From IMG/VR virus record IMGVR_UViG_3300042475_003226, positions 1 to 23,968 of that record: a DNA stretch of 23,968 nt. The stretch is one strand, 5' to 3'. The notes under the pieces were generated by a model that saw only the letters and a program-made list of their open reading frames with translations, did not search any database and was not told where the DNA came from. The translations under genes and the position numbers were made by a program. The DNA is from a virus. Shown piece after piece: positions 9,159 to 23,917 of the stretch (positions within the stretch are counted from its first letter, which is position 1; each line of letters begins with the position of its first letter).

Positions 9159-9186
9159 ATTATAAATACTTTTTGAATTAAGTCAA
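9159..9186 (-). promoter_or_regulatory. Near-consensus sigma70 promoter of DNA polymerase
   Basis: TTGACT (9181-9186), a 16-bp spacer, then TATAAT (9159-9164). The -10 shares bases with a plus-strand TATAAATA late box, so early and late promoters overlap back to back. Confidence 0.75.
9161..9168 (+). promoter_or_regulatory. T4-late-type promoter of the lysis genes
   Basis: TATAAATA on the plus strand, 38 bases before the first lysis ATG. It is the only promoter-like site for the two plus-strand genes, which are expected to be expressed late. Confidence 0.65.
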
Positions 9187-9205: not shown

Positions 9206-9655
9206 ATGTCTGTATTTTCTTTTTTCAGTACTCCACCCATCGCGTCCTTTGAGCAACTAGAGCTCGAAAAGGGTAAGGTGCAGCTCACTATTATGAAGAT
9301 GGCCGCCGCTATTCTTGGCACTATCATGATTGCGGTTGTGTTTATTTTTCTCATTGGCATGTTCATGCCTAATCATCTTATCGACAACAATGAGATTTTC
9401 AAAATCATTGGCCCAGCATTCTCTACTATTGTAGGTGCTTTCGTTGGAGCCTTTGCTACTATGATGGGTATGAAGGTGTCTGAGCTAGACACGAATGTAA
9501 AGACCCAGGAGCTGGGCAAGACAGATCATAAAGAGCTAGCAGAAGCTCACAAGATCAACGCAGAAGCTGAATCGATCGAAACAGACAACGAAATCAAAAT
9601 GATGGCAGCTGTCGACAAGTATCTTGATTCAGACGAAGACCACGGCCCATTCTAA
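9206..9655 (+). CDS. Two-TM membrane protein, probable holin
   Basis: The 149-aa protein has two strong membrane segments, about residues 33-53 (AILGTIMIAVVFIFLIGMF) and 66-88 (IIGPAFSTIVGAFVGAFATM). A charged helical C-terminal tail of about 60 residues follows. Its position directly before the endolysin, with only 10 bases between, and its late promoter are typical of a holin that opens the inner membrane. A CGAGG ribosome site precedes the ATG. No sequence family is recognised, so holin is an inference from topology and context. Confidence 0.6.
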   Translation: MSVFSFFSTPPIASFEQLELEKGKVQLTIMKMAAAILGTIMIAVVFIFLIGMFMPNHLIDNNEIFKIIGPAFSTIVGAFVGAFATMMGMKVSELDTNVKTQELGKTDHKELAEAHKINAEAESIETDNEIKMMAAVDKYLDSDEDHGPF

Positions 9656-9665
9656 GGAGTATATT

Positions 9666-10850
9666 GTGACCCAACTAACAGAACATTTTAATCTAGCAGA
9701 GATGATCGTTTCTCCTACAGCAAAGAAACTCGGTCTTCCCAACACGCCAACACCACAGCACATTGAGAACATGCGCTACTGCTGCGAGAAGATCCTCGAA
9801 CCAGTACGGGCAAAGTTCGGCCCAGTAACGATCAACTCATCATATAGAGCACCTGCTGTCAACAAGGCAGTAGGTGGTTCGGCTACTTCACAACACGTTA
9901 ACGGCCAAGCAATTGACTTCGAAGTTAAGGGTGTTGATAATAAGAAAGTAGCTGACTGGGTTGCTGACAACCTTGAGTTCGATCAGGTCATCCTTGAGTT
10001 CTACTCCGCTGGTGACAAGAACTCTGGATGGGTACATGCTTCGATCAAGAAAGAAGGCGGCAATCGCAAGATGCGTATGATCGCTTCTAAGTCGAAGGCC
10101 GGTGGGACGAAGTACACTCAGGTTGCTGACTTTGATCCATCAACGACTCGCGAAGCAGGAGCTCCTCCAACATCGAGTCCAGCAGCTGCTCCAGCTCAGT
10201 CGGCTGGTCAAAAGGCAGCTCCAGTTGCAGCGGGTCTTGGTCCATTAGCAGCTCTCCAATCTAAGTGCGGCATTGCTGCCGATGGTAAGTGGGGTCCTGG
10301 TACTTATAAGGCGGCGAGAGATTTCTTCAAGCTGTCCAACAACCAAGCAGCTCACTTCTTTGGTCAGTGTGCTCACGAGTCGGGTGGCTTCAATGTCTTT
10401 TCAGAAAACCTTAACTACTCAGACAAGGGCCTCAACGGGATCTTCAAGAAGTACTTCCCAACGATTGCTTCGACAGCAGGATATGCTCGCAAGCCAGAGA
10501 AGATTGCAAACAAAGTGTATGCTAATCGGATGGGGAACGGACCAGAAGCCTCTGGAGATGGCTGGAAGTATCGTGGTCGAGGCCCGATCCAACTGACCGG
10601 GAAAGCGAATTATACAGCCTTTGCCGCCGACATTGGACGTCACGACGTTTTAACGAATCCTGATCTTGTGGTAGGGGAGTTGGCTTTTGAGTCTGCATTG
10701 TGGTTCTTCCGTAAGAATGGTCTGCTGGCTGTTGCAGATAAGGGTGTAACCGATGCAGTGATCACTCAGATCACAAAGCGTGTCAATGGTGGGACTCATG
10801 GCCTAGACGATAGGCTTAAGAAAACCAAACAGTACGCCAACTGGGGATAA
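9666..10850 (+). CDS. Modular endolysin: M15 peptidase plus GH19 glycosidase
   Basis: I choose the GTG start at 9666 because TAAGGAG lies 7 nt upstream; a TTG further upstream would overlap the holin gene. The 394-aa product has an N-terminal M15A peptidase: SYRAPAVNKAVGG, SQHVNGQAIDFE with His77 and Asp84, and WVHAS with His124. A Pro/Ala-rich linker spans roughly 160-191. The C-terminal GH19 domain resembles lysozyme/chitinase, with FGQCAHESGGF (catalytic Glu238), WKYRGRGPIQLTG (about 300-312) and VNGG. Together they would cut both the peptide stems and the glycan strands of peptidoglycan. No signal peptide is seen, which fits holin-dependent release. Confidence 0.88.
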   Translation: MTQLTEHFNLAEMIVSPTAKKLGLPNTPTPQHIENMRYCCEKILEPVRAKFGPVTINSSYRAPAVNKAVGGSATSQHVNGQAIDFEVKGVDNKKVADWVADNLEFDQVILEFYSAGDKNSGWVHASIKKEGGNRKMRMIASKSKAGGTKYTQVADFDPSTTREAGAPPTSSPAAAPAQSAGQKAAPVAAGLGPLAALQSKCGIAADGKWGPGTYKAARDFFKLSNNQAAHFFGQCAHESGGFNVFSENLNYSDKGLNGIFKKYFPTIASTAGYARKPEKIANKVYANRMGNGPEASGDGWKYRGRGPIQLTGKANYTAFAADIGRHDVLTNPDLVVGELAFESALWFFRKNGLLAVADKGVTDAVITQITKRVNGGTHGLDDRLKKTKQYANWG

Positions 10851-11421: not shown

Positions 11422-11682
11422 TTACTTGCAACGAGGAAACAGAGTGTAATTGGAATTATACTCGTGGTGAGTAAGTTTTCCATCACTGTTTTCGTCGGCA
11501 TAGTTGAAGATACCATGCTTAACCTTACAACCATGAGAGGTCAGTTCGTCGTATGTAAGAACGTGATCCTGGTTAACATCCAGCGCAGCAAAGCGGACCT
11601 TTGGCGAAGCAAAGGCGGCCGATGAGATGATGCCGGTTGTCATGAGAGCGGCCATAAGGCCTGCGATAATGTACTTAGTCAT
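11422..11682 (-). CDS. Secreted EF-hand calcium-binding protein, 86 aa
   Basis: Residues 1-25 form a Sec signal peptide (basic start, hydrophobic core, cleavage probably after AAFA), so the mature protein is about 60 aa and periplasmic or secreted. Two EF-hand loops are readable, DVNQDHVLTYDE and DENSDGKLTHHE. Each has acidic residues at loop positions 1, 3 or 5 and Glu at 12. Two Cys residues (one mid-domain, one in the final PRCK) could form a disulfide. GGAG precedes the ATG. It has its own promoter and forms a unit with hsp20. The role in infection is unknown; bacterial EF-hand proteins of this type are often periplasmic, and this may be a gene taken from a host. Confidence 0.8.
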   Translation of the reverse strand: MTKYIIAGLMAALMTTGIISSAAFASPKVRFAALDVNQDHVLTYDELTSHGCKVKHGIFNYADENSDGKLTHHEYNSNYTLFPRCK

Positions 11683-13245: not shown

Positions 13246-15300
13246 TTATTTGGAGGTGGCGCGATATACCCCATCAAAATTCTTCACGCCAGCGGCTTTC
13301 ATATCAACGCATCGGCCGATCATCATCTCGTAGTATGCGACGAGCTCGCCGTTCCAGCACCGCTTGAGATCCTCAGCGAACTTTGCAGCAGCATCCCATT
13401 TGGCTTCGCGATAGAGATCTAGGAACTTTTTATGCAGCAATTCACCAGCAGCATCGTATATCTCTACAGCCGTGAAGATGCGAGCCGGCTCGGTCTTACC
13501 CTTAACAGCTATCAGATCGAGTTCCACGACCTGGTATACATTCCCAACGAGGTCCGCTGTACGCGGCCCGAGGACGAGTTTAACTCCATAAGGCTTGGAT
13601 TGACCTTCGAGACGAGCAGCCAGATTAACGCCGTCACCCAGGCAAGTATAATCAAAGCGCTGATTAGAGCCCATATTACCAACAACCACAGTGGCAGTGT
13701 TAATACCAAGGCCCATACCGAAAGCTGGAACGCCTTCTTCTTTAATTTCTGCATTAAATCTCTCCAAGGCTTTCATCATCTCAAAGGACGTTCTCACAGC
13801 GTCCAGAGCGTGCTTTTCGTTTGCGACAGGTGCGTTCCAGAAGGCCATCTGAGCGTCCCCAATGTACTTATCCAGCGTACCATTGTTCTCGAGGATCGCC
13901 TTTGTCATAGCTGTCATGTAGCGATTCATGATCTTTGTGAGACCTTGAACGTCCTTACCATAATGCTCAGAGATCGTAGTGAAGCCACGAACGTCTGTGA
14001 ACATGATTGACAGCTCTTGCTCTTCACCGCCCAGAGCAAGTAGCTCAGGATTGCGTTGGAGCTTTGCAACCAGGTCTGGGGAGAGATACGTTCCGAACTG
14101 CTTCTTGATCTGCTGCTTCTGCAGATACTCTGAGATGAATTTTGCTGTGTAGATGTGTAGGTAAATTACAAGAGCAGCAAAGACATTGAAAGATATGTCA
14201 AGTAGCAGCTTCTCGTTGGCAAATAAATAGACAGGTAGATAGAAATATCCACCAACCAATACAATGATCCAAACCACAGAGTATCTAACTCTTGATAGAA
14301 CAACGATACCAATTGTGAGGAGTACGAACAGTGCCAAATCAAGATAACCAGCCCAGAGAGGAATCGCAATGGCCTCGCCGTCTAGAAGTGTCTGAAGAAT
14401 GCTTGCTTGTACATTTTGAGGATATTGAGCTCCTTGAGGCGTTGCTAGTGGATTCTGAATGCCGGCAGCAGTTACACCTAAGATTACAATCTTTTGATTC
14501 AAGTCTAAACTGGTCTTAGAGCCAAGCTCCATCTCTTTGAACTTGTAGTTCGGATTGATAAATATCCGACCGTATTCATCCGTCTTAATTGTGTCAAATT
14601 GAGGAATTCGTAATGCTTCAACTCCCGTCTCATTTACCTTCACTTGATACGAAGGATCTCCAGCTGCTACACGCAACAGTTCTAACGCGAATGCAGGATA
14701 ATATTCGCCAGCTGATTGAGCTAGAAGAGGAACTCGGCGCACGACCCCATCAGACTCAGGTAGCGTTGATGTTACACCAACACCAGCGGCTGCTTCTTGG
14801 AGAGCTGGTATATTACTTAGAACGCATGGGTATTGAGGAAGAAATTCAGTCGGTTGTCCGTCACCGATTACAGCGACTCCAGTACGACGAATCGATTTAC
14901 TGGAACGAGAGCACGAATCACTAATTGTTTGACTAAGAACTACTTGACTTTGGGCTAATGTGTCTGAAAGTACGCCATCAGTCCCGAAACGATCAGGCTC
15001 AGGCATAAGTATGGTGCTACCAACAATGCCAGCTCCTCGGCCATAAAGGTCGCTAATAATTTCTGCGTGGACCTTTCTCGGAAACGGCCATTGGCCATAT
15101 TTTTCAATTGCTTTCTCCCCTATGTTTACGACTACAATATCTTGTGAATGCTTTGTTTCACCCATCATAATGTAGTCATAAAATTTGAGTCTTGCCGACT
15201 CAACGAGGAACGGATCCTGCATCTTTACTGCGAATAGCAGGGCAAATGTGAGGAGAGCCAACCACGGCGATAATAGGATTTTACTCGCTTTGCTTGACAT
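13246..15300 (-). CDS. CHASE2-domain class III adenylate/guanylate cyclase
   Basis: The 684-aa protein has a membrane anchor at about 9-26, an extracytoplasmic CHASE2 sensor domain (about 28-310), three membrane segments (about 313-336, 341-361, 367-388) and a cytoplasmic cyclase domain (about 425-610). The catalytic set is intact: metal Asp436 in FTDVRGFT and Asp482 in KYIGDAQMAFW, base-selecting Lys478, Thr552 in the second base-selecting position, and Asn559 and Arg563 in GDGVNLAARLE. The Lys/Thr pair favours ATP, so cAMP is the likely product. CHASE2 cyclases beside FecR proteins are a known bacterial arrangement. Its ATG lies 20 bases inside the FecR gene. It is last in the curli-like operon, an unusual cargo for a phage. 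Confidence 0.92.
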   Translation of the reverse strand: MSSKASKILLSPWLALLTFALLFAVKMQDPFLVESARLKFYDYIMMGETKHSQDIVVVNIGEKAIEKYGQWPFPRKVHAEIISDLYGRGAGIVGSTILMPEPDRFGTDGVLSDTLAQSQVVLSQTISDSCSRSSKSIRRTGVAVIGDGQPTEFLPQYPCVLSNIPALQEAAAGVGVTSTLPESDGVVRRVPLLAQSAGEYYPAFALELLRVAAGDPSYQVKVNETGVEALRIPQFDTIKTDEYGRIFINPNYKFKEMELGSKTSLDLNQKIVILGVTAAGIQNPLATPQGAQYPQNVQASILQTLLDGEAIAIPLWAGYLDLALFVLLTIGIVVLSRVRYSVVWIIVLVGGYFYLPVYLFANEKLLLDISFNVFAALVIYLHIYTAKFISEYLQKQQIKKQFGTYLSPDLVAKLQRNPELLALGGEEQELSIMFTDVRGFTTISEHYGKDVQGLTKIMNRYMTAMTKAILENNGTLDKYIGDAQMAFWNAPVANEKHALDAVRTSFEMMKALERFNAEIKEEGVPAFGMGLGINTATVVVGNMGSNQRFDYTCLGDGVNLAARLEGQSKPYGVKLVLGPRTADLVGNVYQVVELDLIAVKGKTEPARIFTAVEIYDAAGELLHKKFLDLYREAKWDAAAKFAEDLKRCWNGELVAYYEMMIGRCVDMKAAGVKNFDGVYRATSK

Positions 15301-16372
15301 TGATAATAGTTCCTCCGGCAGGATCGTTGATTTCTATTAGGAATGATTTTCCGTTGCTATCTATGTATAGTGTTTTATTTTCATCCTTCTTAAATCGAAC
15401 ATCGACAGTGGTGCTGAGAGTTCTCACTAAGCGTATAGTGTCCCCAGATATAATAGATGTGATTTGAGTAGTATTGTCAAGTCCAAATACCGTGCCACAG
15501 AGCTTCGTTCCATCTCTGGTTGCGCAGACATTATCACTCAGACCGCTATCAAGAAAGTCTTCTCCGAGAAAGTCAGCATTGATAGAGTTGATATCGAGGT
15601 CTGAGCTAGCTAGCTGATCCTCTTTTAGATCATCTCTAGCCAGGAAGTCTATGTTAAGCTGGGAGAGATCGAGTATATTCGACTTTGTGTCGGCGATTTC
15701 TTCTCCCGTATCTACTTCTTCTGCTGGAGAGACAATTAACATGTTGTCTATTTGATCAAGAGTCAGATTCAAAATGACTGGCTGAGTAGGTCTGCTGTCA
15801 GTCGTTGAAACTATAGTAGCTTGAAAAGCTTTTGTGAGAACAACCATACCGGCTGCATTGGAAACAGTAATCTCTCCAACAGAGCCATCGGGTTCAGGTA
15901 GCAGAACAATAAGACTTTTGCCAAAGTCGTCAACTGTGGTTGCGAAGTCAGTACCACGAACTGCAATCGTGGCTGTCGGTGTTCTGAGGTTAATGTTACC
16001 CTTGCTCATTTTGCCAGATTGACCTGTCGCAAAGCGAGCAGTGCCCGAAGCAAATTTGAGAGCCATCCTAGAAGTAGACGGCTTTCCGCTGTAGACAAAG
16101 TCATCGATTACGAGTTTCGAGTGCTCTGTGACCTTAACGGTAGAGTCGTCCACAAATGTGATTTCGACTCTACCATTTCCAGTCTGCACTCTATCCATTA
16201 TGGCAATGGACAATTGTGGTGTTGTAGGAAAGCGCTGGGCTTTCTTTACAATCTCACTTATGCCGCGAGCCTGAGTTACCTTGCCTATATTAGCATGGGC
16301 CGCCGGCGTTGCACTGATTAATAGTAATAGTGCTGCCAGTGCTCGTACTATTGAGCTTGATGGTGTCCACAT
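15281..16372 (-). CDS. Secreted FecR-domain protein, 363 aa
   Basis: A Sec signal peptide (about 1-27, ending PAAHA) is followed by a FecR domain (about 45-145). The domain holds DRVQTGNGRVEITFVDDSTV, RMALKFASGTARF and the hallmark TPTATIAVRGTDF (131-143). The C-terminal 200 residues are Asp/Ser-rich with a CATRDGTKLCG Cys pair. It lacks the cytoplasmic anti-sigma segment of classical FecR, so it is not an iron-uptake regulator. FecR proteins of this kind are encoded next to CHASE2 cyclases in bacteria and are thought to work with them in the periplasm. The ATG lies 83 bases inside the curlin-like gene, because the signal peptide needs that start. Confidence 0.85.
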   Translation of the reverse strand: MWTPSSSIVRALAALLLLISATPAAHANIGKVTQARGISEIVKKAQRFPTTPQLSIAIMDRVQTGNGRVEITFVDDSTVKVTEHSKLVIDDFVYSGKPSTSRMALKFASGTARFATGQSGKMSKGNINLRTPTATIAVRGTDFATTVDDFGKSLIVLLPEPDGSVGEITVSNAAGMVVLTKAFQATIVSTTDSRPTQPVILNLTLDQIDNMLIVSPAEEVDTGEEIADTKSNILDLSQLNIDFLARDDLKEDQLASSDLDINSINADFLGEDFLDSGLSDNVCATRDGTKLCGTVFGLDNTTQITSIISGDTIRLVRTLSTTVDVRFKKDENKTLYIDSNGKSFLIEINDPAGGTIINVKQSE

Positions 16373-16982
16373 TGGTTGTGCTCTTTTGATTTACAGTGAC
16401 GTTGTTAGTGCTACCTGTAAGAATCATTTCGATATTCTTACCAGCTGTTCCATCTTGTACCATTGCAATCGTATTACCATCGCCCGTAACAGTCATGTCG
16501 TTGACTACATCATCTGCGTTGATAGTAGATGTATAGGTGTTTGTATCACCCGTCACAGCAATTGTTTGAGTAGCATTCGTTGCAGAGGCAGCAGTGCCCT
16601 GGTTGAATGTCATCTGGTTTGAATCACCAGTCACAGTAAGAGTCTTTGTAGAACCGGCAACGCTAGCAGCTGCGCCTTGGTCATACGTCAGAGTATTGTT
16701 ATCTCCGGTTACTGTTACATCATAGGCGATGTTATCAGCCTGAACAATCGAACCTTGAGTCAGGTTTCCATTACCTTCTTGTGTCGATGTAATGGTTTGA
16801 TTGTTACCTTCAATTACAACACGATTCTGTTCTGAACCGATTCTGTTGTTTTGGCCCTTTTGAGTAATATTGATTGTACTACTGTTACCCACTTGATCAA
16901 TATAAATCGAGTTAGTTGTCGACTGTGCAAAAGCTATCGAACTCGCCATCACTGACATAATGAAAAGAATTAGTCTCTTCAT
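16290..16982 (-). CDS. Curlin-like repeat protein, secreted, 230 aa
   Basis: The signal peptide is residues 1-19 or 20 (cleavage after AFA). The mature protein is Asn/Thr/Gln-rich with degenerate beta-solenoid repeats spaced 22-26 residues: TGDNNTLTYDQG, TGDSNQMTFNQG, TGDTNTYTSTIN, TGDGNTIAMVQD, TGSTNNVTVNQK. The N-terminal part has the curlin-style IYIDQVGNSSTINITQKGQN. This is the amyloid-type fold exported through CsgG. The end QCNAGGPC carries two Cys residues not usual in CsgA or CsgB. The ATG overlaps the CsgG stop (ATGA). Whether it is a fibre subunit, nucleator or other exported adhesin cannot be told. Confidence 0.8.
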   Translation of the reverse strand: MKRLILFIMSVMASSIAFAQSTTNSIYIDQVGNSSTINITQKGQNNRIGSEQNRVVIEGNNQTITSTQEGNGNLTQGSIVQADNIAYDVTVTGDNNTLTYDQGAAASVAGSTKTLTVTGDSNQMTFNQGTAASATNATQTIAVTGDTNTYTSTINADDVVNDMTVTGDGNTIAMVQDGTAGKNIEMILTGSTNNVTVNQKSTTNVDTIKLNSTSTGSTITINQCNAGGPC

Positions 16983-17767
16983 TGTTGTTGTTCCTTGTAT
17001 TTGAAATACCGTCTCTCGACGCCTTGTTTGATTAGTTGTAGAACAGCTTCTTCTATTGCCATTTTCACAGCCATTGTGTTGGCCTCATTTTCTGTCATTC
17101 CTGCTTCAGCTTCTATCAACTTTGTGCCAACATCAACAAACTTAAACAGAGAGAGGTCTCGACCGACAGACAATACTGTTTTGGAAACCTGCACATTAAG
17201 AATTACTTCTCCTGTATTGGTATTCACGCCGCGTAAAGCTACAACAACTTGGTCCTTGCGGTATACGGTTGTTCCTCCGATACCGAGATACCTTGCTCCT
17301 GCTCCACCTGTTTGTATGTTGCTATCATAGCCAATAATCCCACCCTGAATAATAAGACCCGCGAATAGCATAGGCTCAAGTTTGTTAGCCCCTTCGCCTT
17401 GATATTCTTCACGCGTCTGACGAACAATCTGACGTTCCTTTGCTAAATCATCAACACGGTTACGCTCTGCTACTCTAAACCACTTACCTCCGCCAGCTTC
17501 TTTTAGCGCAGATATCAGGAGAGCTGTTCCACCCTGAGTCACCGCGGTTGAGATGCTGGCGACCCCATCCTTGTCTTTGCGCTGACCCGTGAGATCAGGG
17601 AAATCGTAGACAGCTACAACTGCTTGTCTCTCTGGTGCGGGAAGGGCTTGTAGCTCCTTTACCTGAGTCGTCATTATCGCGGGAGCATCCTTAAGTTGAA
17701 ACACACCACGCCCCGTCGACATGCAACCACCCAGCAGTAGGGGTAAAAGCAATACTCTCCAGTACAT
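16979..17767 (-). CDS. csgG: CsgG-like outer-membrane curli secretion lipoprotein
   Basis: This 262-aa protein is close in length to E. coli CsgG (277). CsgG forms the nonameric outer-membrane channel for curli subunits. The lipobox LLGGC gives acylated Cys15. Shared blocks are VAVYDFPDLTGQ (51-62), STAVTQGG, WFRVAERNRVDDLAKERQIV, IIGYDSNIQTGGAGARYLGI and NTNTGEVILNVQVSKTVLSV. I use the ATG at 17767 (TAATG coupling with csgF) over the GTG two codons earlier. By eye the constriction residues Tyr51/Asn55/Phe56 of E. coli are replaced by Asp, Ser and Ile, so the pore gate may differ. Confidence 0.93.
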   Translation of the reverse strand: MYWRVLLLPLLLGGCMSTGRGVFQLKDAPAIMTTQVKELQALPAPERQAVVAVYDFPDLTGQRKDKDGVASISTAVTQGGTALLISALKEAGGGKWFRVAERNRVDDLAKERQIVRQTREEYQGEGANKLEPMLFAGLIIQGGIIGYDSNIQTGGAGARYLGIGGTTVYRKDQVVVALRGVNTNTGEVILNVQVSKTVLSVGRDLSLFKFVDVGTKLIEAEAGMTENEANTMAVKMAIEEAVLQLIKQGVERRYFKYKEQQQ

Positions 17768-18204
17768 TACCACTTGAATCCGCTAGTAGGAATGATAATT
17801 TCGGTAGTGTCTCCAGCATCATTCGTAATTGTCAGTTTGATCTCGGTATCAGTCTTCTCATACTTGATAGTATTGCCTTCAAGAGCAAACTCCCCAGACT
17901 GACCACCCATCTCACCAAATAGATTGTTTGTTAACTGCTGTGCAAGCTGAGAGTAGATACGAGATTGTAGGTTGTTCATGAATCGATTCAGGATCGAGTT
18001 CTTTTCCTCAAGCGCGGCGGCTTTCAGCTCAGCTTCTATTTTGTCTCCGATAGCTTTCTTGCGAAGTGTTTCTTGGTTTTCAATCGTAAGCCATTGTGCG
18101 CCTGCATTGACACCGGAGAACGATGGATTCTTAAATTGATGAACAATCTCACTTGCTTGCAGCGGGCTGCTTACTAGGAGCAGTAGGAGCAGACTCTTTT
18201 TCAT
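17767..18204 (-). CDS. csgF: CsgF-like curli assembly factor
   Basis: The 145-aa protein has a signal peptide (1-17, cleavage after LQA) followed by SEIVHQFKNPSFSGVNAGAQ. This matches the CsgF N-terminus (F.FRNP.F.G.....), which plugs into the CsgG pore and makes its second constriction. The central helix and C-terminal beta part (IKLTITNDAGDTTEIIIPTSG) follow the CsgF plan. In curli systems CsgF couples the secreted nucleator to the pore. The gene directly precedes csgG with a stop-start overlap. No csgE, csgB or csgC homologue is visible in this window. Confidence 0.9.
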   Translation of the reverse strand: MKKSLLLLLLVSSPLQASEIVHQFKNPSFSGVNAGAQWLTIENQETLRKKAIGDKIEAELKAAALEEKNSILNRFMNNLQSRIYSQLAQQLTNNLFGEMGGQSGEFALEGNTIKYEKTDTEIKLTITNDAGDTTEIIIPTSGFKW

Positions 18205-18284: not shown

Positions 18285-18542
18285 TTAAGATTTATTGTCA
18301 CTATGATCTTCCTTAATCTGCAGTACGACACTTACCTTCTGGTTCAGTCTAATCAAATCATTATCAAGCATGCGAACACGATCAATCAGAGCAATAAGAA
18401 TAACATTGGTTTCGCCAATCAACGGCATTAATCTATCTGTAACAAACTTGTAGACAAACCACACGAAGTATCCCATTCCCACAGCTGCGACAATCGGAAA
18501 CCCATATTGCTTTACAAGTTCGGCAATTACATTTACATCCAT
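18285..18542 (-). CDS. Small single-TM protein, tandem paralogue B, 85 aa
   Basis: The N-terminus is MDVNVIAELVKQYGFPIVAA with a membrane segment at about 14-33. An amphipathic, probably coiled-coil tail follows (LIALIDRVRMLDNDLIRLNQ). It aligns over most of its length with the next gene: both start MDxNVI, have GFPI-AA-G-FV-FV in the membrane segment, and the D(N)RV-----D-IR pattern in the tail. It starts on the stop of its paralogue (one shared base). The topology is like small holin-accessory or pore-scaffold peptides, but no family is recognised. It may act with the curli export genes. Confidence 0.7.
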   Translation of the reverse strand: MDVNVIAELVKQYGFPIVAAVGMGYFVWFVYKFVTDRLMPLIGETNVILIALIDRVRMLDNDLIRLNQKVSVVLQIKEDHSDNKS

Positions 18543-18829
18543 CAGTCTTTTCTCGCATCGTTCTTCCCGTCTGCTCGAGCGATACGATCTAGATCTGGCT
18601 TCAGACCCAAAGCGGAACTTACTACGGCATCAACACGGATAATATCATGGTTCATTGTCTTGACTCTGTTGTCAAGCCCCATAATGATACCTTGCATGCC
18701 TTTAATGGCCTTTAGAACACTTTCAAGAATATAATTAATGACGAAGTATACAAACACCCCAGCAAGCAGAGCTGCAGCTATGGGAAAACCAACATCAGCA
18801 ATTAGTTTGAAAATAACATTGTAGTCCAT
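18542..18829 (-). CDS. Small single-TM protein, tandem paralogue A, 95 aa
   Basis: The N-terminus MDYNVIFKLIADVGFPIAAA leads into a membrane segment at about 14-35. A helical tail follows (GLDNRVKTMNHDIIRVDAVV), ending in a charged stretch ARADGKNDARKD. It is paralogous to the 85-aa gene that follows. The start is secured by that similarity. No ribosome site is visible before the ATG, and the late-type box at 18835-18842 would place the transcript start on the A of this ATG, so a leaderless mRNA is possible. It is the first gene of the curli/FecR/cyclase operon. Confidence 0.7.
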   Translation of the reverse strand: MDYNVIFKLIADVGFPIAAALLAGVFVYFVINYILESVLKAIKGMQGIIMGLDNRVKTMNHDIIRVDAVVSSALGLKPDLDRIARADGKNDARKD

Positions 18830-18834
18830 GCCGT

Positions 18835-18842
18835 TATTTATA
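18835..18842 (-). promoter_or_regulatory. T4-late-type promoter of the curli/cyclase operon
   Basis: TATAAATA on the minus strand, contiguous with the T-run of the terminator at 18842-18872. With T4 late-promoter geometry (box at -13 to -6) the +1 falls at 18829, the first base of the operon. Confidence 0.55.
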
Positions 18843-18872
18843 AAAAAAAGGGGCAGCCGAAGCTGCCCCTTT
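18842..18872 (-). terminator. Strong intrinsic terminator
   Basis: An 11-bp stem (AAAGGGGCAGC/GCTGCCCCTTT; plus 18847-18857 with 18862-18872) with a TTCG loop on the minus strand is followed by eight Ts. It ends the small-gene run upstream (18874-19364) and insulates the curli/cyclase operon. Confidence 0.9.
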
Positions 18873-19565: not shown

Positions 19566-19640
19566 TGGCTCGAGTGGCAGGATTCGAACCTGCGACCAAT
19601 TGATTAACAGTCAACTGCGCTACCGCTGCGCCACACTCGA
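19566..19640 (-). tRNA. tRNA-Asn(GTT)
   Basis: Acceptor TCGAGTG/CACTCGA with discriminator G and encoded CCA. Anticodon loop TGTTAA gives GTT. T-loop TTCGAAT is canonical. Confidence 0.93.
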
Positions 19641-19659
19641 ACAAACTCTTATATTATAC

Positions 19660-19736
19660 TGGAGCCCCCGACAGGATTCGAGCCTGTAACCTTTTGATTC
19701 GTAATCAAATGCTCTCTCCAGTTGAGCTACGGGGGC
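19660..19736 (-). tRNA. tRNA-Arg(ACG)
   Basis: Acceptor GCCCCCG/CGGGGGC, encoded CCA, anticodon loop TTACGAA giving ACG. It would need A-to-I34 editing by the host TadA to read all CGU/CGC/CGA codons. Confidence 0.92.
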
Positions 19737-19741
19737 TTATA

Positions 19742-19816
19742 TGGTACCCGATGACGGGATTGAACCGCCGACCTTATCCGTGTAAAGGATCTGCTCTACC
19801 GCTGAGCTAATCGGGC
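19742..19816 (-). tRNA. tRNA-Val(TAC)
   Basis: Acceptor GCCCGAT/ATCGGGT with a G-U end pair, discriminator A and CCA. Anticodon loop TTTACAC gives TAC. Confidence 0.92.
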
Positions 19817-19817
19817 A

Positions 19818-20036
19818 TTATGGCGTAAAAGTATTGCCAATTTGTTTACTAGTAAGATGAAAAACAACATCGATGGTATTGATCACCTGCTTAATTAAAG
19901 CAGTTTCTGCATCAACATAACCATCAAGCGCACTCTGGAATGTTTTATTCTGTATGTACGTCTTATTCCATTGCTTTTTAAAGCTCTGTGTAACCATGAC
20001 CATATAGCTAGTCTGAGCTGTAAAATTTGCGTACAT
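19818..20036 (-). CDS. Small helical protein inside the tRNA array, 72 aa
   Basis: I start it at the ATG at 20036 (MYANFTAQTSYMVMVTQSFK) because AAGGAAG lies about 6 nt upstream. A late-type TATAAATA box (20069-20076) would put the transcript start about 27 nt before it. The protein is helical; its second half (FQSALDGYVDAETALIKQVI) has an amphipathic heptad pattern somewhat like phasin-type helices, which is only a resemblance. It ends two bases before tRNA-Val. Function unknown. A dedicated late promoter inside a tRNA array suggests a late, possibly structural or membrane-surface role. Confidence 0.6.
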   Translation of the reverse strand: MYANFTAQTSYMVMVTQSFKKQWNKTYIQNKTFQSALDGYVDAETALIKQVINTIDVVFHLTSKQIGNTFTP

Positions 20037-20068
20037 CGCATACTTCCTTGGTGGCTTAATGCCATCCA

Positions 20069-20076
20069 TATTTATA
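20069..20076 (-). promoter_or_regulatory. T4-late-type promoter of the 72-aa gene
   Basis: TATAAATA on the minus strand, one base past the CCA of tRNA-Leu(TAG). The predicted start is near 20063, leaving a short leader with a good ribosome site. Confidence 0.5.
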
Positions 20077-20077
20077 A

Positions 20078-20159
20078 TGGTACTCCAAGAGGGACTCGAA
20101 CCCCCACGCTTGCGCACTAGTTCCTAAGACTAGCGTGTCTACCATTCCACCATTGGAGC
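20078..20159 (-). tRNA. tRNA-Leu(TAG)
   Basis: Class II tRNA, 82 nt with a long variable arm (around TGCGCAAGCGTG). Acceptor GCTCCAA/TTGGAGT, discriminator A, CCA. Loop CTTAGGA gives TAG. Confidence 0.93.
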
Positions 20160-20160
20160 A

Positions 20161-20237
20161 TGGTGCCTTCGTAGGGAATCGAACCCCCCGACACGTGGTT
20201 CATCAAACCACTGCTCTACCAGCTGAGCTACAAAGGC
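20161..20237 (-). tRNA. tRNA-Ile(GAT), copy 1
   Basis: Acceptor GCCTTTG/CGAAGGC, discriminator A, CCA. Anticodon arm GTGGT-TTGATGA-ACCAC gives GAT. Base 37 is G, where Ile tRNAs normally have A (t6A). Confidence 0.88.
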
Positions 20238-20240
20238 AAA

Positions 20241-20310
20241 GTAAAGACCACCTGCAGTGTGCCTTGATTGCTTACGTCCGGACGTTGCAATCTTCCCAGA
20301 TAGTCTTTAC
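20241..20310 (-). ncRNA. Candidate structured RNA in the tRNA array
   Basis: An 8-bp closing helix (GTAAAGAC 20241-20248 with GTCTTTAC 20303-20310) encloses a hairpin GATTGC/GCAATC (20266-20271 with 20287-20292). That hairpin contains a 12-nt palindrome ACGTCCGGACGT (20274-20285). The size and three-way layout are tRNA-like, but there is no T-loop consensus or CCA. It could be a decayed tRNA or an unrelated small RNA. The rest of 20238-20381 holds no convincing gene. Confidence 0.35.
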
Positions 20311-20381
20311 CGTTGCAACAGCAAGTGCTACCTTTTCCTCTTTGTGGTTGCCCACGGGGTTCAGCAGAGGTGGTTCTATAT

Positions 20382-20457
20382 TGGTGGACCCTATCGGACT
20401 CGAACCGATCACCTTCTGCGTGCAAGGCAGACGCTCTCCCAGATGAGCTAAGGGCCC
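20382..20457 (-). tRNA. tRNA-Ala(TGC)
   Basis: Acceptor GGGCCCT/AGGGTCC with one G-U pair, discriminator A, CCA. Anticodon arm TCTGC-CTTGCAC-GCAGA gives TGC. Confidence 0.92.
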
Positions 20458-20476
20458 GTATATGGTAATAATATTC

Positions 20477-20550
20477 TGGAGCGGGCTACGGGAATCGAAC
20501 CCGTGTCGTCAGCTTGGAAGGCTGTCATAATACCATTATACCAAGCCCGC
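20477..20550 (-). tRNA. tRNA-Gly(TCC)
   Basis: Acceptor GCGGGCT/AGCCCGC, discriminator T, CCA. Loop CTTCCAA gives TCC. T-loop TTCGATT. Confidence 0.93.
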
Positions 20551-20557
20551 TCTATTC

Positions 20558-20633
20558 TGGTGCCGGCAGCAGGAATCGAACCCGCGACCTGAGGTTTACA
20601 AAACCACTGCTCTACCATCTGAGCTATACCGGC
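20558..20633 (-). tRNA. tRNA-Thr(TGT)
   Basis: Acceptor GCCGGTA/TGCCGGC, discriminator A, CCA. Loop TTTGTAA gives TGT. There is one mismatch (T28-T42) in the anticodon stem. Confidence 0.9.
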
Positions 20634-20640
20634 ATTAAAC

Positions 20641-20715
20641 TGGTCTAGATGGAGAGACTCGAACTCCCAATCCCCGCGCCCCAAACGCGGTGCCTTACCA
20701 TTAGGCCACACCTAG
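20641..20715 (-). tRNA. tRNA-Pro(TGG)
   Basis: Acceptor CTAGGTG/CATCTAG, discriminator A, CCA. Anticodon arm CCGCG-TTTGGGG-CGCGG gives TGG. It is the first tRNA behind the promoter at 20729-20757. Confidence 0.92.
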
Positions 20716-20728
20716 ATAACTAGTATAT

Positions 20729-20757
20729 TATATATCTCATTTTGTTGAATAAGTCAA
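20729..20757 (-). promoter_or_regulatory. Promoter inside the tRNA array
   Basis: TTGACT (20752-20757), a 17-bp spacer, TATATA (20729-20734) running into TATAATATAC. It lies between tRNA-Gln and tRNA-Pro and would drive the eight tRNA genes downstream of it. Confidence 0.6.
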
Positions 20758-20767
20758 CAACTATTTT

Positions 20768-20841
20768 TGGATGCCCCTTTAGGATTCGAACCTAAATTGA
20801 CGGATTCAAAGTCCGCGCTCTTACCATTAGAGGAAGGGGCA
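20768..20841 (-). tRNA. tRNA-Gln(TTG)
   Basis: Acceptor TGCCCCT/AGGGGCA with a Gln-like U1-A72 end, discriminator T, CCA. Loop CTTTGAA gives TTG. Confidence 0.92.
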
Positions 20842-20848
20842 GTGAAAA

Positions 20849-20935
20849 TGGTGGGTGAGGATGGATTCGAACCAACTCAGCCGTAAGACAACAGATTTAC
20901 AGTCTGCCGCGACTCTCCAACTTCGCCGCTCACCC
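20849..20935 (-). tRNA. tRNA-Tyr(GTA)
   Basis: Class II, 87 nt with a long variable arm. Acceptor GGGTGAG/CTCACCC, discriminator A, CCA. Loop CTGTAAA gives GTA. Confidence 0.93.
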
Positions 20936-20942
20936 AAACCTC

Positions 20943-21131
20943 TTAACGAGGTTGTTCGTGCTCGCCTGCGCCCACTGCAGGCTCTTCAACCTGAAATTCA
21001 GGTGCAGTCACATCAGCGTTAGCTGCTTCTGTTTCAACTGCCTCTGACGTGGTTACGTCCGCTGGCGTTTCGCTACATGCGGCAGTGAGAGCAACAACAG
21101 CAATCGCCATAAAAGTCTTAATATTCATCAT
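20943..21131 (-). CDS. Small acidic lipoprotein in the tRNA array, 62 aa
   Basis: Three ATGs lie in a row (21134, 21131, 21128) behind AAAGGA. Spacing favours the second. The N-terminus MMNIKTFMAIAVVALTAAC is a lipoprotein signal with lipobox LTAAC. The mature part is short, acidic and low in complexity (ETPADVTTSEAVETEAANAD), ending GAGEHEQPR. It should be anchored in a host membrane, possibly as an exclusion or surface factor, which is inference. It lies between tRNA-Lys(TTT) and tRNA-Tyr and seems to depend on the array transcript. Confidence 0.65.
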   Translation of the reverse strand: MMNIKTFMAIAVVALTAACSETPADVTTSEAVETEAANADVTAPEFQVEEPAVGAGEHEQPR

Positions 21132-21205
21132 CATGATTCCTTTGTTGTTAAAGTTGAGGGGCTGACCGTGACCCCTCGCGTGCCTATTAGGTAGCAACCC
21201 CATAC

Positions 21206-21281
21206 TGGTGGACACTCTGGGGCTCGAACCCAGGACCTACAGGTTAAAAGCCCGTTGCTCTACCGACTGAGCTAAGTGTCC
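21206..21281 (-). tRNA. tRNA-Lys(TTT)
   Basis: Acceptor GGACACT/AGTGTCC, discriminator A, CCA. Loop CTTTTAA gives TTT. Confidence 0.93.
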
Positions 21282-21285
21282 GAAA

Positions 21286-21361
<76 letters not shown>

Positions 21362-21370
21362 ATGTTAAAC

Positions 21371-21446
21371 TGGTAGGGGCTGTGGGATTCGAACCCACCC
21401 TGAAACGATTTTAAGTCGCATTCCTCTGCCGCTGGGATAAGCCCCC
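21371..21446 (-). tRNA. tRNA-Leu(TAA), with short variable loop
   Basis: Acceptor GGGGGCT/AGCCCCT with a G-U end pair, discriminator A, CCA. Loop CTTAAAA gives anticodon TAA. The variable region is only about 5 nt, making this a class I tRNA of 76 nt although bacterial Leu tRNAs are class II. Confidence 0.8.
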
Positions 21447-21451
21447 ATCGA

Positions 21452-21610
21452 TTACCATTCGTTGATAATCTCAATCCCTTTGTTCCGATAGTACTGCCTC
21501 CAATAGAAGCATTCATCCATCATAGCATGACCGCTATGACCTTTGTACTCGATCTTGCGAAGGAGCCTGTTGGTTTTAGCGTTGCGAATGGTGAGAGTGT
21601 AATTGAGCAT
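21452..21610 (-). CDS. Hypothetical protein, 52 aa
   Basis: The frame starts MLNYTLTIRNAKTNRLLRKI and ends RNKGIEIINEW. It is small, basic and rich in aromatic residues. AAAGGA precedes the ATG, and a promoter like the others in the window sits upstream (21637-21665). It ends 5 bases before tRNA-Leu(TAA). Function unknown. Confidence 0.6.
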   Translation of the reverse strand: MLNYTLTIRNAKTNRLLRKIEYKGHSGHAMMDECFYWRQYYRNKGIEIINEW

Positions 21611-21636
21611 CTCGTTTCCTTTCTGACTGTATATTC

Positions 21637-21665
21637 ATCTTACATCAGAAATAAAAAAAGGTAAA
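21637..21665 (-). promoter_or_regulatory. Weaker promoter of the 52-aa gene
   Basis: TTTACC (21660-21665), a 17-bp spacer, TAAGAT (21637-21642), then GAATATAC as in the repeated promoters. Confidence 0.45.
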
Positions 21666-21673
21666 CAACAAAA

Positions 21674-21748
21674 TGGGGTGATTGACGGGAATCGAACCCG
21701 CGACGATCGGCTTCACAAACCGACACTCTACCACTGAGCTACAACCAC
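21674..21748 (-). tRNA. tRNA-His(GTG)
   Basis: Acceptor GTGGTTG/CAATCAC, discriminator C as expected for His, CCA. A G is encoded at position -1 (21749). Loop TTGTGAA gives GTG. Confidence 0.93.
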
Positions 21749-21750
21749 CA

Positions 21751-21838
21751 TGGAGGAAGCGGTGGGATTCGAACCCACGGAACCTTTCAGTTCGACAGTT
21801 TTCAAGACTGTATCAATCGACCACTCTGACACGCTTCC
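21751..21838 (-). tRNA. tRNA-Ser(TGA)
   Basis: Class II, 88 nt. Acceptor GGAAGCG/CGCTTCC, CCA. Loop CTTGAAA gives TGA, with a long variable arm. Confidence 0.93.
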
Positions 21839-21841
21839 AAT

Positions 21842-21916
21842 TGGTGCGCATGGGAGATTTTGAAACTCCGACCTATCGGTTATCAACCGATTGCTCTGCC
21901 TCTGAGCTACACGCGC
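21842..21916 (-). tRNA. tRNA-Ile(GAT), copy 2
   Basis: Acceptor GCGCGTG/CATGCGC, discriminator A, CCA. Loop TTGATAA gives GAT with A37. The conserved G53-C61 pair of the T-stem is replaced by T-T, next to a T-loop TTCAAAA. Confidence 0.85.
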
Positions 21917-21950
21917 ATTAAAATATTTCTAGCAATGAGAAAGAACAAGC

Positions 21951-22024
21951 TGGCGAAGGTGGAGGGAGTCGAACCCCCGCTTGCGGTTTTGGAGACCGCC
22001 GTGCTACCGTAACACTTCACCGAC
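21951..22024 (-). tRNA. tRNA-Trp(CCA), acceptor stem imperfect
   Basis: Anticodon arm GCGGT-CTCCAAA-ACCGC gives CCA. Discriminator G and CCA are present. The acceptor GTCGGTG against CACCTTC has mismatches at pairs 2-71 and 3-70, and position 8 is A instead of T. It may be decaying or tolerate the mismatches. Confidence 0.75.
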
Positions 22025-22033
22025 ACAAACTTC

Positions 22034-22110
22034 TGGCGATCTAGAAGGGACTTGAACCCTCGACCTCTCGCGTGACAGGCGAGTGCTCTAACCAACTGAG
22101 CTACTAGACC
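22034..22110 (-). tRNA. tRNA-Asp(GTC)
   Basis: Acceptor GGTCTAG/CTAGATC, discriminator G as expected for Asp, CCA. Anticodon arm CTCGC-CTGTCAC-GCGAG gives GTC. It is the first tRNA after the promoter at 22120-22148. Confidence 0.93.
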
Positions 22111-22117
22111 AGAGTTT

Positions 22118-22148
22118 TATTTATACTCTTTTTCCAGTTTTATGTCAA
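22118..22148 (-). promoter_or_regulatory. tRNA-array promoter with overlapping late box
   Basis: TTGACA (22143-22148), a 17-bp spacer, TATAAA (22120-22125). The -10 is part of TATAAATA (22118-22125), so the site reads both as a strong sigma70 promoter and as a late-type box in the same direction. Confidence 0.65.
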
Positions 22149-22151
22149 CAT

Positions 22152-22949
22152 TTATTTTACGTTGACAATTCCCTTAAAGTCATAAGGAACAATGATCGTC
22201 GAGACCTTACCGTCCTTGACAGCTTCTGCAATAGTCACGAGAGCAGTTGCTTCCATGTACTTCGTTGCACCAGCGTTGGCGTTCAGAGCAGCAATACGTT
22301 CTGCTTCCAACTTTGCAGTACGAACTTCGACCAGCTTCTGCTTTTCGGCATTCTGTGCTTGCACGAGCTGGTTAGCCGAGGCTACGATGTTAGCTGCAGG
22401 CTTCACCTGACGAACGAGAACCTGCGAGATTGAGATAGCGCCAAGAAGCTCTTCAGCAGCGAGGCTAGCAACAACTTCTTGGCGGATCAGTTGTTCCATC
22501 TCTGCACGATTATCTGCCATCTTAAGCGACTCGTAGCGACGAGCAACCTTGTATGCAGCGTTACGACCAAGCTGACGAACATAGTTGTACATCAACAGAG
22601 TATCGCCTTCTTCAGTTTCAGCGTGAAATCCACGGTTCTTCTCGATATAGAGTTCGGCAACCGAGCCAGGATTGATCGAGTAGATGACAGCCATATCGAA
22701 GTCTGCAACGGTCGAGTTATCCGAAGCCAGCGGAGTCAAGTCAGCAACATCAACCTGAACGTCCTTGGTAGGGAACGTCATCACGTCGCCAAACATTGTC
22801 TGGTTGACAGAACCAGGCATCAGCTCGGTGGTTTCGATGGTCTTGTCAAACGAGCGACGAACACCAACTTCACCAGTTTCAATACGAGTACAAGCAGCAG
22901 TCGTAGCCAGCAGACCAGCGAGCACAGCAAACTTAGCAATACGATTCAT
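22152..22949 (-). CDS. SPFH/band-7 (prohibitin-like) lipoprotein
   Basis: I start it at the ATG at 22949, with AAAGGA 9 nt upstream; an ATG three codons earlier is too close to that site. The 265-aa protein has a lipoprotein signal ending LLATTAAC, then a band-7 domain: IETGEVGVRRSFDKTIETTE, DVADLTPLASDNSTVADFDM, YVRQLGRNAAYKVARRYESL. A long Ala/Glu-rich helix follows (around NQLVQAQNAEKQKLVEVRTA). SPFH proteins form ring or cage assemblies on membranes, for example HflK/C around FtsH and prohibitins. The lipid anchor would put this one on the outer face. A role in superinfection control or in protecting membrane proteins is inference. Confidence 0.85.
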   Translation of the reverse strand: MNRIAKFAVLAGLLATTAACTRIETGEVGVRRSFDKTIETTELMPGSVNQTMFGDVMTFPTKDVQVDVADLTPLASDNSTVADFDMAVIYSINPGSVAELYIEKNRGFHAETEEGDTLLMYNYVRQLGRNAAYKVARRYESLKMADNRAEMEQLIRQEVVASLAAEELLGAISISQVLVRQVKPAANIVASANQLVQAQNAEKQKLVEVRTAKLEAERIAALNANAGATKYMEATALVTIAEAVKDGKVSTIIVPYDFKGIVNVK

Positions 22950-22968
22950 TCTAAACATTCCTTTTCAA

Positions 22969-23145
22969 TTAAAACAAGATAACAATACCAGCAATGATGG
23001 ACATCACCACTACTGTTATTACCATACTACAACCCAGAGATTTAATCAACTGAATTTTTTCTCTACCGGTTGCAGCAACAAAGAATTTCACACCGACGAA
23101 CGCCAATGCAAACAGTATAAGAAAACTTAAAATCATTTTACTCAT
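22969..23145 (-). CDS. Small two-TM membrane protein, 58 aa
   Basis: The frame starts MSKMILSFLILFALAFVGVK and ends VVVMSIIAGIVILF. There are two membrane segments (about 5-24 and 38-57) joined by a short basic loop ATGREKIQLIKS. Its ATG shares one base with the stop of the 31-aa gene, so they are coupled. It lies 19 bases before the SPFH lipoprotein gene and may work with it. Function unknown. Confidence 0.65.
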   Translation of the reverse strand: MSKMILSFLILFALAFVGVKFFVAATGREKIQLIKSLGCSMVITVVVMSIIAGIVILF

Positions 23146-23240
23146 TAATTAGGTCCACTTCCATTTCCCCATGCTTTCACAGGACCTTCATATCCTGTAT
23201 CCTTCCAACGTTGTTGGATTCTTTGTTCAAGATCATCCAT
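23145..23240 (-). CDS. Very small protein, 31 aa
   Basis: The frame starts MDDLEQRIQQRWKDTGYEGP and ends GNGSGPN. AAGGAAG lies 5-8 nt upstream of the ATG, and a repeat-family promoter sits directly before it. It is coupled to the two-TM gene (TAATG). The strong start signals argue for a real gene despite its size. Confidence 0.55.
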   Translation of the reverse strand: MDDLEQRIQQRWKDTGYEGPVKAWGNGSGPN

Positions 23241-23269
23241 TGCCGCTTCCTTCTCTCACTCTATATCTC

Positions 23270-23298
23270 TTTATAGACTCTTTTTGAGAAAAAGGCAA
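23270..23298 (-). promoter_or_regulatory. Repeat-family promoter with palindromic spacer
   Basis: TTGCCT (23293-23298), a 17-bp spacer TTTTCTCAAAAAGAGTC, TATAAA (23270-23275), then GAGATATAG. It would drive the 31-aa, 58-aa and SPFH genes. It follows the stop of the YkuK-like gene by 3 bases. Confidence 0.7.
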
Positions 23299-23301
23299 CA
23301 T

Positions 23302-23745
23302 TTAATTTAGGTGACGCACCGCATGGTCAGCTGCGTGAGTAGCAGCGAATGAAGCCGGCTTGATCTTCGCATCCATATTGAGCGAACCCTTAACCCATCC
23401 AAGCGCTTCCTTCACAGCAACGTTTGACTTATGCTTTGGATCCGGATTGATATCAAGATGGATTTCCATGTGACGATTGCCAAGCACTTCGATGATTTCG
23501 GTTGCAGTAGCCACGGCATAATGGACCTCAGTCAGCAGACGCTGCTTTAAGTTACCGTAGTCAGGCATGTCAACAGATTCATGGAATAGTCGGCAACCCT
23601 TCTTCGAATCCATGTGAACAATCACAACTGTAGAGTACTTGGCGTACCACGTGTTATTCTTACGAAAACGAATCGAGTCACAGCCGATATAAACCGACGA
23701 CTCTTGACTCGAATCTAAGATTGCTTGCTTGGCTTCTTCAATCAT
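23302..23745 (-). CDS. YkuK-like RNase H-fold protein (DUF458), 147 aa
   Basis: The N-terminal SSVYIGCDSIRFRKNN with Asp23, the LLTEVHYAVATATEI helix with Glu73, HMEIHLDINP with Asp98, and the final ATHAADHAVRHL with Asp140 follow the plan of the DUF458/YkuK family. That family has an RNase H-like fold with a conserved acidic cluster, and no cellular role has been firmly shown. Full single-domain length. It lies between tRNA-Cys and a promoter, so it is transcribed with the tRNAs upstream. An activity on RNA or DNA is likely from the fold but unproven; the gene position invites a link to RNA turnover. Confidence 0.8.
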   Translation of the reverse strand: MIEEAKQAILDSSQESSVYIGCDSIRFRKNNTWYAKYSTVVIVHMDSKKGCRLFHESVDMPDYGNLKQRLLTEVHYAVATATEIIEVLGNRHMEIHLDINPDPKHKSNVAVKEALGWVKGSLNMDAKIKPASFAATHAADHAVRHLN

Positions 23746-23762
23746 TATACTTACTCAAAATA

Positions 23763-23840
23763 TGGAGAGCCGGGTGGGATTCGAACCCACGGTTTTCAGG
23801 TTTTGCAGACCTGTGCATTGGACCACTCTGCCACCGGCTC
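23763..23840 (-). tRNA. tRNA-Cys(GCA)
   Basis: Acceptor GAGCCGG/CCGGCTC, discriminator T as expected for Cys, CCA. Loop CTGCAAA gives GCA. Confidence 0.93.
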
Positions 23841-23841
23841 T

Positions 23842-23917
23842 TGGTACTCCCGGAGGGACTCGAACCCCCAACCTAACCGTTATGAGCGGTCAGCTCTAAC
23901 CATTGAGCTACAGGAGT
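23842..23917 (-). tRNA. tRNA-Met(CAT), elongator, or tRNA-Ile2
   Basis: Acceptor ACTCCTG/CGGGAGT, discriminator A, CCA. Loop CTCATAA gives CAT. Position 1-72 is A-U and the anticodon stem lacks the three G-C pairs of initiators, so it is either elongator Met or a lysidine-type Ile tRNA. Confidence 0.9.

Follow-up and report, generated by a model that had tools for sequence, protein, structure and literature searches.

Why should a phage carry a membrane receptor equipped to make a second messenger? The question is raised by a 23,968-nucleotide stretch of viral DNA, the whole of which we call the window (positions 1–23,968 of the IMG/VR virus record IMGVR_UViG_3300042475_003226, a virus fragment). 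Its minus strand holds an intact open reading frame (13246..15300, ATG start) for a 684-aa protein that joins a CHASE2 sensor to a class III nucleotide cyclase, and its phage origin follows from the T4-like DNA polymerase, UvsX, DnaB-like helicase and endolysin that it encodes. The cyclase gene closes a curli secretion operon that is probably expressed late in infection and appears to be built of separately exchangeable parts, and we propose, tentatively, that its product would serve as part of an envelope sensor.

The original prediction described an intact membrane-bound cyclase of a phage, with all catalytic residues readable and with CHASE2 and four transmembrane segments complete, and our analysis bears this description out. 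Pfam places CHASE2 at residues 20–328 (7.7e-38) and Guanylate_cyc at residues 428–604 (7.9e-18), both so far above cut-off that chance matches can be set aside. The catalytic domain (13489..14019, minus strand) has Asp436 and Asp482, which we take to be the metal ligands, Lys478 and Thr552, presumably the base selectors, and Asn559 and Arg563, presumably the transition-state residues. We assume that the Lys/Thr pair selects adenine, which leads to the label class IIIb adenylate cyclase; the enzyme would use ATP, and its product is probably cyclic AMP (cAMP). An AlphaFold2 monomer model built on 76 aligned sequences from phages and bacteria (mean predicted local distance difference test score, pLDDT, 89.8; predicted template modelling score 0.68) supersedes an earlier one from 17 near relatives that was weak in the catalytic core (mean pLDDT 73.9). 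It has one membrane-length helix before CHASE2 (residues 13–28) and three after it (317–335, 341–363 and 370–405), and so fits the topology of CHASE2 receptors, in which the domain sits between one transmembrane helix and three. The modelled catalytic domain matches CyaB (3r5g; Z 19.2, 2.4 Å over 187 residues) and CyaC (1wc4; Z 18.5, 2.2 Å over 186 residues), tied at the top. CyaB and CyaC (1wc0–1wc6) thus share the catalytic fold, and the Lys/Thr base positions align with those of CyaB, whereas the N-terminal sensor of both differs from CHASE2. Asn559 and Arg563 do not vary across the 76 aligned sequences, 39 of which have Thr at position 552 and 37 Ser; a general C-terminal ending W-[DN]-G-V was dropped, since the pattern fits just 29 of the 76. 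Sequence and model together support an intact membrane-bound class III cyclase.

The gene is also well kept among its nearest viral relatives, for which we took the best 80 of at least 589 related viral stretches (54–75% identity to the window cyclase). Seventy-four are full length with no internal stop, and the remaining six are cut at a contig end. D436, K478 and D482 occur in all 81 sequences, the window included, T552 in 80/80 sequences that cover it, and N559, R563 and K600 in 79/79. Purifying selection is strongest in the catalytic domain: the median ratio of nonsynonymous to synonymous substitution rates (dN/dS), from pairs with 0.1<dS<1.2 and with the six partial cyclases of the 80 loci excluded, is 0.078 there (346 of 2775 pairs), as against 0.193 in CHASE2 (507 pairs) and 0.145 over the whole gene (323 pairs). 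Invariant residues and a low catalytic dN/dS, a comparison that the original prediction had proposed as a check, argue that the cyclase has been kept for catalysis in this near-relative group.

Its genomic setting is equally constant. All on the minus strand, the operon runs tmB–tmA–csgF–csgG–curlin–FecR–cyclase, the cyclase being the last gene. The FecR-domain protein (15281..16372; Pfam FecR 1.6e-11) has, by eye, a signal-peptide-like N-terminal segment, and its gene and the beginning of the cyclase gene share 20 nt. Before it lie a curlin-repeat-like fibre protein (16290..16982), again with a signal-peptide-like N terminus by eye, CsgG, the outer-membrane curli pore (16979..17773; Pfam CsgG 1.9e-48), whose LGGC near the N terminus we take to be a lipobox-like motif, and the accessory protein CsgF (17767..18204; Pfam CsgF 2.7e-21). 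The curlin match is formally weak (Curlin_rpt 0.0022, 18.4 bits versus a cut-off of 20.7; NCBIfam CsgA 4.5e-4, well short of the threshold). The operon opens with two small proteins that look membrane-bound by eye, the 95-aa tmB (18542..18829; phrog_18771 2.4e-30) and the 85-aa tmA (18285..18542; phrog_18771 1.9e-30), paralogues that both belong to PHROG 18771. Counting the loci nearest to the window that have enough flank, all 48 (of 80 cyclase loci) that extend 6 kb or more upstream contain CsgF, CsgG, curlin and FecR in that order; in 29 of the 48 another curlin gene separates FecR from the cyclase, and 47 have tmA and tmB, six times downstream on the opposite strand. Starting from CsgG gives the reverse picture, with FecR and cyclase in 31/31 loci (of 45) that have at least 5.5 kb downstream.

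The phage curli module, or type VIII secretion system (T8SS), has been described before, including its FecR and adenylate cyclase (PMC9599517, 2022), and phage curli genes were reported earlier still (PMC7029224). The pelagiphages HTVC008M (KC465899) and Melnitz (MZ577097) share with the window the order small proteins, CsgF, CsgG, curlin, FecR, (second curlin), cyclase, their cyclases being 42–43% identical to that of the window; the FecR and second-curlin positions of HTVC008M are annotated as hypothetical, and in the window, unlike in the pelagiphage module, no second curlin is annotated by hidden Markov model (HMM). Melnitz is said in PMC9004378 to lack csgA and csgB, whereas its GenBank record (our locus L084) annotates two curlin-repeat proteins beside FecR. 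According to PMC9599517, FecR and cyclase do not occur in every phage curli module, and one or two histidine kinase genes lie upstream of csgF, where the window has proteins of 85–95 aa with no Pfam histidine-kinase match. The tmA/tmB paralogues of the window, L083 and L084 occupy that position and would, judged by it, be the genes so named; the kinase reading itself finds no support in the searches made, in which Pfam gives no such match and the PHROG matches are 18771 and a weak holin family.

How the operon is probably switched on bears on what the cyclase could do. A T4-type late promoter element, TATAAATA (18835..18842, minus strand), ends 5 nt before the tmB ATG, immediately downstream of an intrinsic terminator-like hairpin (18847..18872, minus strand; an 11-bp stem, then a T run). 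The window has five exact copies against 0.56 expected, a number that 0 of 100 dinucleotide shuffles reach; one of them (9161..9168, plus strand) stands 37 nt before the gene preceding the endolysin, and two lie within the tRNA region (20069–20076 and 22118–22125, the latter just upstream of a tRNA-Asp gene). Within 120 nt upstream the element is found in 26 of 55 relatives for tmB, 19 times at 4–8 nt from the ATG, and in 4/56 for CsgF; the counts are 0/55 for tmA, 0/56 for CsgG, 0/62 for curlin, 0/64 for FecR, 0/75 for the cyclase and 0/28 for the polymerase gene. A phage HSP20 gene has it in 9 of 13 relatives and may be late too. Among 26 distinct tmB-upstream regions, dereplicated from 33 loci with an aligned tmB start (55 having upstream sequence), 18 contain TATAAATA and 21 contain ATAAATA, which by chance would occur in 0.58 on average and in four at most (1000 mononucleotide shuffles). 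Since the motif is conserved while the sequences around it are dissimilar (median ungapped identity 0.28), the curli–cyclase operon is probably late, a timing that we infer from the motif. Late promoter elements stand at a usual spacing from the transcript start, and with the modal 5-nt gap this would put the start at or near the tmB ATG and give a nearly leaderless message. In HTVC008M the element precedes csgF, and the Melnitz copy lies across the start of the tmB homologue. PMC9004378 took TATAAAT as a T4-like late promoter and predicted 15 late promoters in Melnitz, which may include one at the curli genes; late-promoter detection in pelagimyophages had been attempted in PMC7029224, by its own account without success.

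One published reading, that of PMC9599517, is that phage-made cAMP stands in for the bacterial route from cAMP to CsgD and regulates curli or host genes, the state of export being irrelevant. The place of the cyclase beside csg genes in all 48 loci with enough flank suits such expression control. The operon, however, begins at a late-promoter motif, and T4-type late promoters require phage late factors, not the cAMP receptor protein CRP. CRP-like sites are, moreover, not in excess in the window, and the Crp domain was found in 0/18 phage records. We consider this reading unlikely.

The promoter positions lend themselves to a second reading, in which holin-like tmA and tmB, the CsgG pore and the cyclase would help to time lysis or release. 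Late-promoter motifs precede both the curli operon and the endolysin gene pair (9206–10850) in the window, the holin family phrog_4898 matches tmA (9.1e-4) and, weakly, tmB (0.015), both proteins covary with CHASE2 (Spearman rho 0.56 and 0.57), and a role of the CsgGF pore in lysis was suggested in PMC9004378. Yet the tmA match spans only a short stretch (residues 4–25), the covariation may follow phage lineage, curlin and FecR are left unexplained, and the phage encodes an endolysin of its own elsewhere, immediately preceded by what its position makes a candidate holin, a membrane-looking protein (9206–9655, plus strand) with no clear family match. Lysis timing thus seems distinctly improbable as the role of the cyclase.

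Timing also bears on the suggestion in the original prediction that the cyclase interferes with nucleotide-based defence, phage cyclic nucleotides saturating or misleading the host system. The catalytic domain is homologous to that of Pycsar cyclases (best PADLOC match PycC, 1.3e-24), which places the phage enzyme within the chemistry used by such defences. The match is limited to the general cyclase domain, however, and the setting is curli; no Pycsar effector match appeared among four window proteins scanned (FecR, tmA, tmB and an HD protein). Counter-defence genes are expected early in infection, and a decoy needs no elaborate membrane sensor. Given the late-promoter motif at the head of the secretion operon and the constant position of the gene within it, we disfavour an anti-defence role, to which we would give hardly any weight. 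The other half of that suggestion, that the phage alters cAMP-controlled behaviour of its host, is plausible as a proposal.

If the cyclase belongs to the curli module, the question becomes which parts of the module belong together. We compared 37 dereplicated modules (666 pairs) from 52 loci, the window included, in which all seven genes are complete; the Mantel permutations applied leave shared ancestry in. FecR identity tracks that of CsgG and of curlin (Spearman 0.82 each, 0/2000 permutations). CsgF is intermediate, at 0.61–0.71 with FecR, CsgG and curlin and 0.64 with CHASE2, and FecR and tmA are nearly unrelated (0.06, 198/2000). CHASE2 tracks CsgF as well as tmA and tmB, correlations that may reflect phage lineage. 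Thirteen modules are of the window type, an identical set whether defined by CsgG, FecR or curlin, with cut-offs set after the values were known. In 95 module pairs CHASE2 is >70% identical and CsgG <50%; the opposite (CsgG >70%, CHASE2 <50%) occurs in five pairs, those listed all involving locus L081. Within the cyclase itself, 28 pairs have catalytic parts >90% identical and CHASE2 <55%, as do L017 and L064 (92% and 40%). As FecR, CsgG and curlin covary while near-identical catalytic parts carry different CHASE2 domains, CsgG–curlin–FecR is evidently swapped as one cassette and the CHASE2 half separately, against a near-constant catalytic half.

Bacterial relatives suggest where the parts came from. 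CHASE2 cyclases of Rhizobiaceae, Bradyrhizobium, Rhodospirillales and others share its domain architecture almost from end to end and are 28–37% identical to the window protein over most of it; a first genome scan with phage-specific motifs confirmed no relative, and the second used an alignment that included bacterial sequences. With an HMM seeded on 37 phage and 4 plasmid FecR sequences, FecR was found within 3 kb of 25 of the 80 best bacterial CHASE2-cyclase genome loci, 18 of the 25 within 200 bp, and at 3–10 kb in three further cases; with >1.2 kb required on both sides, the count is 22/60. CsgG, CsgF and curlin occur in 0/80 of these loci (flanks up to 10 kb). Plasmid loci were examined for 4 of 40 listed cyclase hits and 4 of 30 listed CsgG hits. 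In all four cyclase loci a FecR gene is adjacent or one small gene away, and in two of them, L085 and L086 on Ensifer and Shinella plasmids, FecR and the CHASE2-cyclase lie within operons for NHLP export of peptides (bacteriocins) that also encode a cyclic-nucleotide-binding protein (Pfam PF00027), in contrast to the curli neighbours in phages. Of 385 genomes sampled from the class to which a Thalassospira genome belongs, six contain CsgF (five over cut-off). Canonical bacterial curli operons share CsgF, CsgG and a curlin-like protein with the phage module, and FecR or cyclase occurs in 0/9 bacterial csg loci (five with ~10 kb flanks and four on plasmids), which supports the statement in PMC9599517 that neither belongs to bacterial curli operons. 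Because FecR recurs beside bacterial CHASE2-cyclases while the bacterial csg loci examined contain neither, phages seem to have brought together two bacterial units, one being the FecR/cyclase pair and the other the curli genes.

Taken in order, these results suggest the following mechanism. The gene product would be an active class IIIb adenylate cyclase that works as a homodimer, sits in the inner membrane of the infected cell and exposes CHASE2 to the periplasm; it would be made late from the T4-type promoter together with CsgG, CsgF, the curlin-like fibre protein and the periplasmic FecR protein. FecR and CHASE2 would be an envelope sensor pair acquired from bacteria; FecR, matched to the fibre and pore cassette, would report the state of that cassette, CHASE2 would relay it, and the cyclase would then alter host cAMP, to be read by a receptor of the host. 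To this explanation in full, a late FecR/CHASE2 pair that reads the state of the envelope or of fibre export and sets cAMP for a host receptor, we would give a little less than an even chance. Its footing in the sequences consists of an intact, conserved enzyme domain, the operon, the late-promoter motif, the bacterial FecR/CHASE2-cyclase neighbourhood and the cassette exchange; cyclase activity on ATP, contact between FecR and CHASE2, a stimulus, a ligand and host cAMP as the output are what we infer beyond it. A broader form, in which FecR and CHASE2-cyclase are a general bacterial sensor of secretion status that phages have rewired onto their curli exporter, with FecR, suited to the type of fibre and pore, signalling export in a late operon to an exchangeable CHASE2 that sets host cAMP, is a possibility to be taken seriously, though we doubt it.

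Several observations weigh against the envelope-sensor explanation. FecR covaries weakly with CHASE2 (rho 0.21, a value that 2/2000 permutations reach), even though its gene adjoins the cyclase gene or is one gene off, which counts against a strict fit between the two proteins; a common stimulus for both is possible. FecR within 3 kb is absent from 55 of the 80 bacterial relatives, in some owing to a contig end. On the side of timing, 29 of 55 relatives have no exact TATAAATA within 120 nt of tmB, the endolysin gene itself has none within 120 nt in 22/22 relatives, and in Melnitz a partial copy, ATAAATA, stands before the cyclase gene as well, so that the cyclase may not always rely on the operon promoter. 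On the output side, neither the 24 related phage records searched, which may be fragments, nor the complete genomes of HTVC008M and Melnitz gave a cAMP receptor (PF00027) over cut-off, and CRP-like sites in the window number 11 against 15 expected. The lone sub-threshold PF00027 match (E 0.007, 13.5 bits, in a 1796-aa frame) was rejected as a phage receptor; since none over cut-off was found in phages, the receptor, if any, would be that of the host. No clumping of Melnitz-infected cells was observed, according to PMC9004378.

Melnitz also gives the one case of broken catalytic residues. None is seen in the 80 nearest relatives wherever these cover the positions, and here the expectation of an intact enzyme held; in the distant Melnitz cyclase (L084 7944–9995; 42% identical) Asn559 is replaced by Ser and Thr552 by Asp, both residues being retained in the window, and this loss of the catalytic Asn suggests that catalytic activity is not retained everywhere. 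It may be weakly active or inactive. The HTVC008M cyclase, by comparison, has all catalytic residues except for Ser in place of Thr552, as in several bacteria (nine aligned sequences), and because of the missing Asn in Melnitz we regard HTVC008M as the better cultured test phage. That Melnitz keeps the gene and its position regardless, and that phages yielded no cAMP receptor over cut-off, would suit a cyclase retained as a scaffold of the export complex whose product hardly matters. With purifying selection strongest in just the catalytic domain and its residues invariant in the 80 nearest relatives, we think such a passenger very improbable.

Elsewhere in the window, the polymerase is 48.9% identical to its best match in a named phage (among the matches listed), and the 15 listed matches are Synechococcus phages and marine single-cell viruses. 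There are 21 tRNA genes for 18 amino acids (19566–23917, minus strand). A small HD-domain protein (2931–3380, minus strand), akin to the hydrolase portion of RelA/SpoT (NCBIfam spoT_relA 1.4e-16, under the cut-off of that model; Pfam HD_4 1.1e-7), is possibly a phage alarmone hydrolase and, as such, a candidate second nucleotide-signal gene of the window. An SPFH/Band 7 (stomatin-like) protein whose N terminus resembles that of a lipoprotein lies at 22152–22958 (minus strand; Pfam Band_7 2.7e-12, phrog_200 7.4e-29), and a small EF-hand protein with a signal-peptide-like start at 11422–11682 (minus strand), the latter seen in one of 80 related loci (L003), many of which end short of that position.

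Although the phage curli–FecR–cyclase module itself is known, its likely late timing and mix-and-match sensor make-up look new. The main text of PMC9599517 contains neither 'CHASE2' nor 'promoter', and in the portions of the open-licence literature searched we found no description of a late promoter at the phage curli operon, of NHLP–FecR–cyclase operons, of the cassette exchange or of the FecR/CHASE2-cyclase pairing in bacteria; phage-encoded cAMP synthesis is hardly discussed there. PMC9599517, PMC9004378 and PMC7029224 leave the purpose of the module open in their passages on it. The cyclase is conserved within a phage module that is widespread, with at least 589 related viral stretches, and the unclear function of that module becomes open to specific tests through the late-promoter motif, the exchange of cassettes and the FecR neighbourhood seen in bacteria. 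If phages have indeed rewired a sensor of secretion status, a second messenger would help to set when phages are released or cells aggregate.

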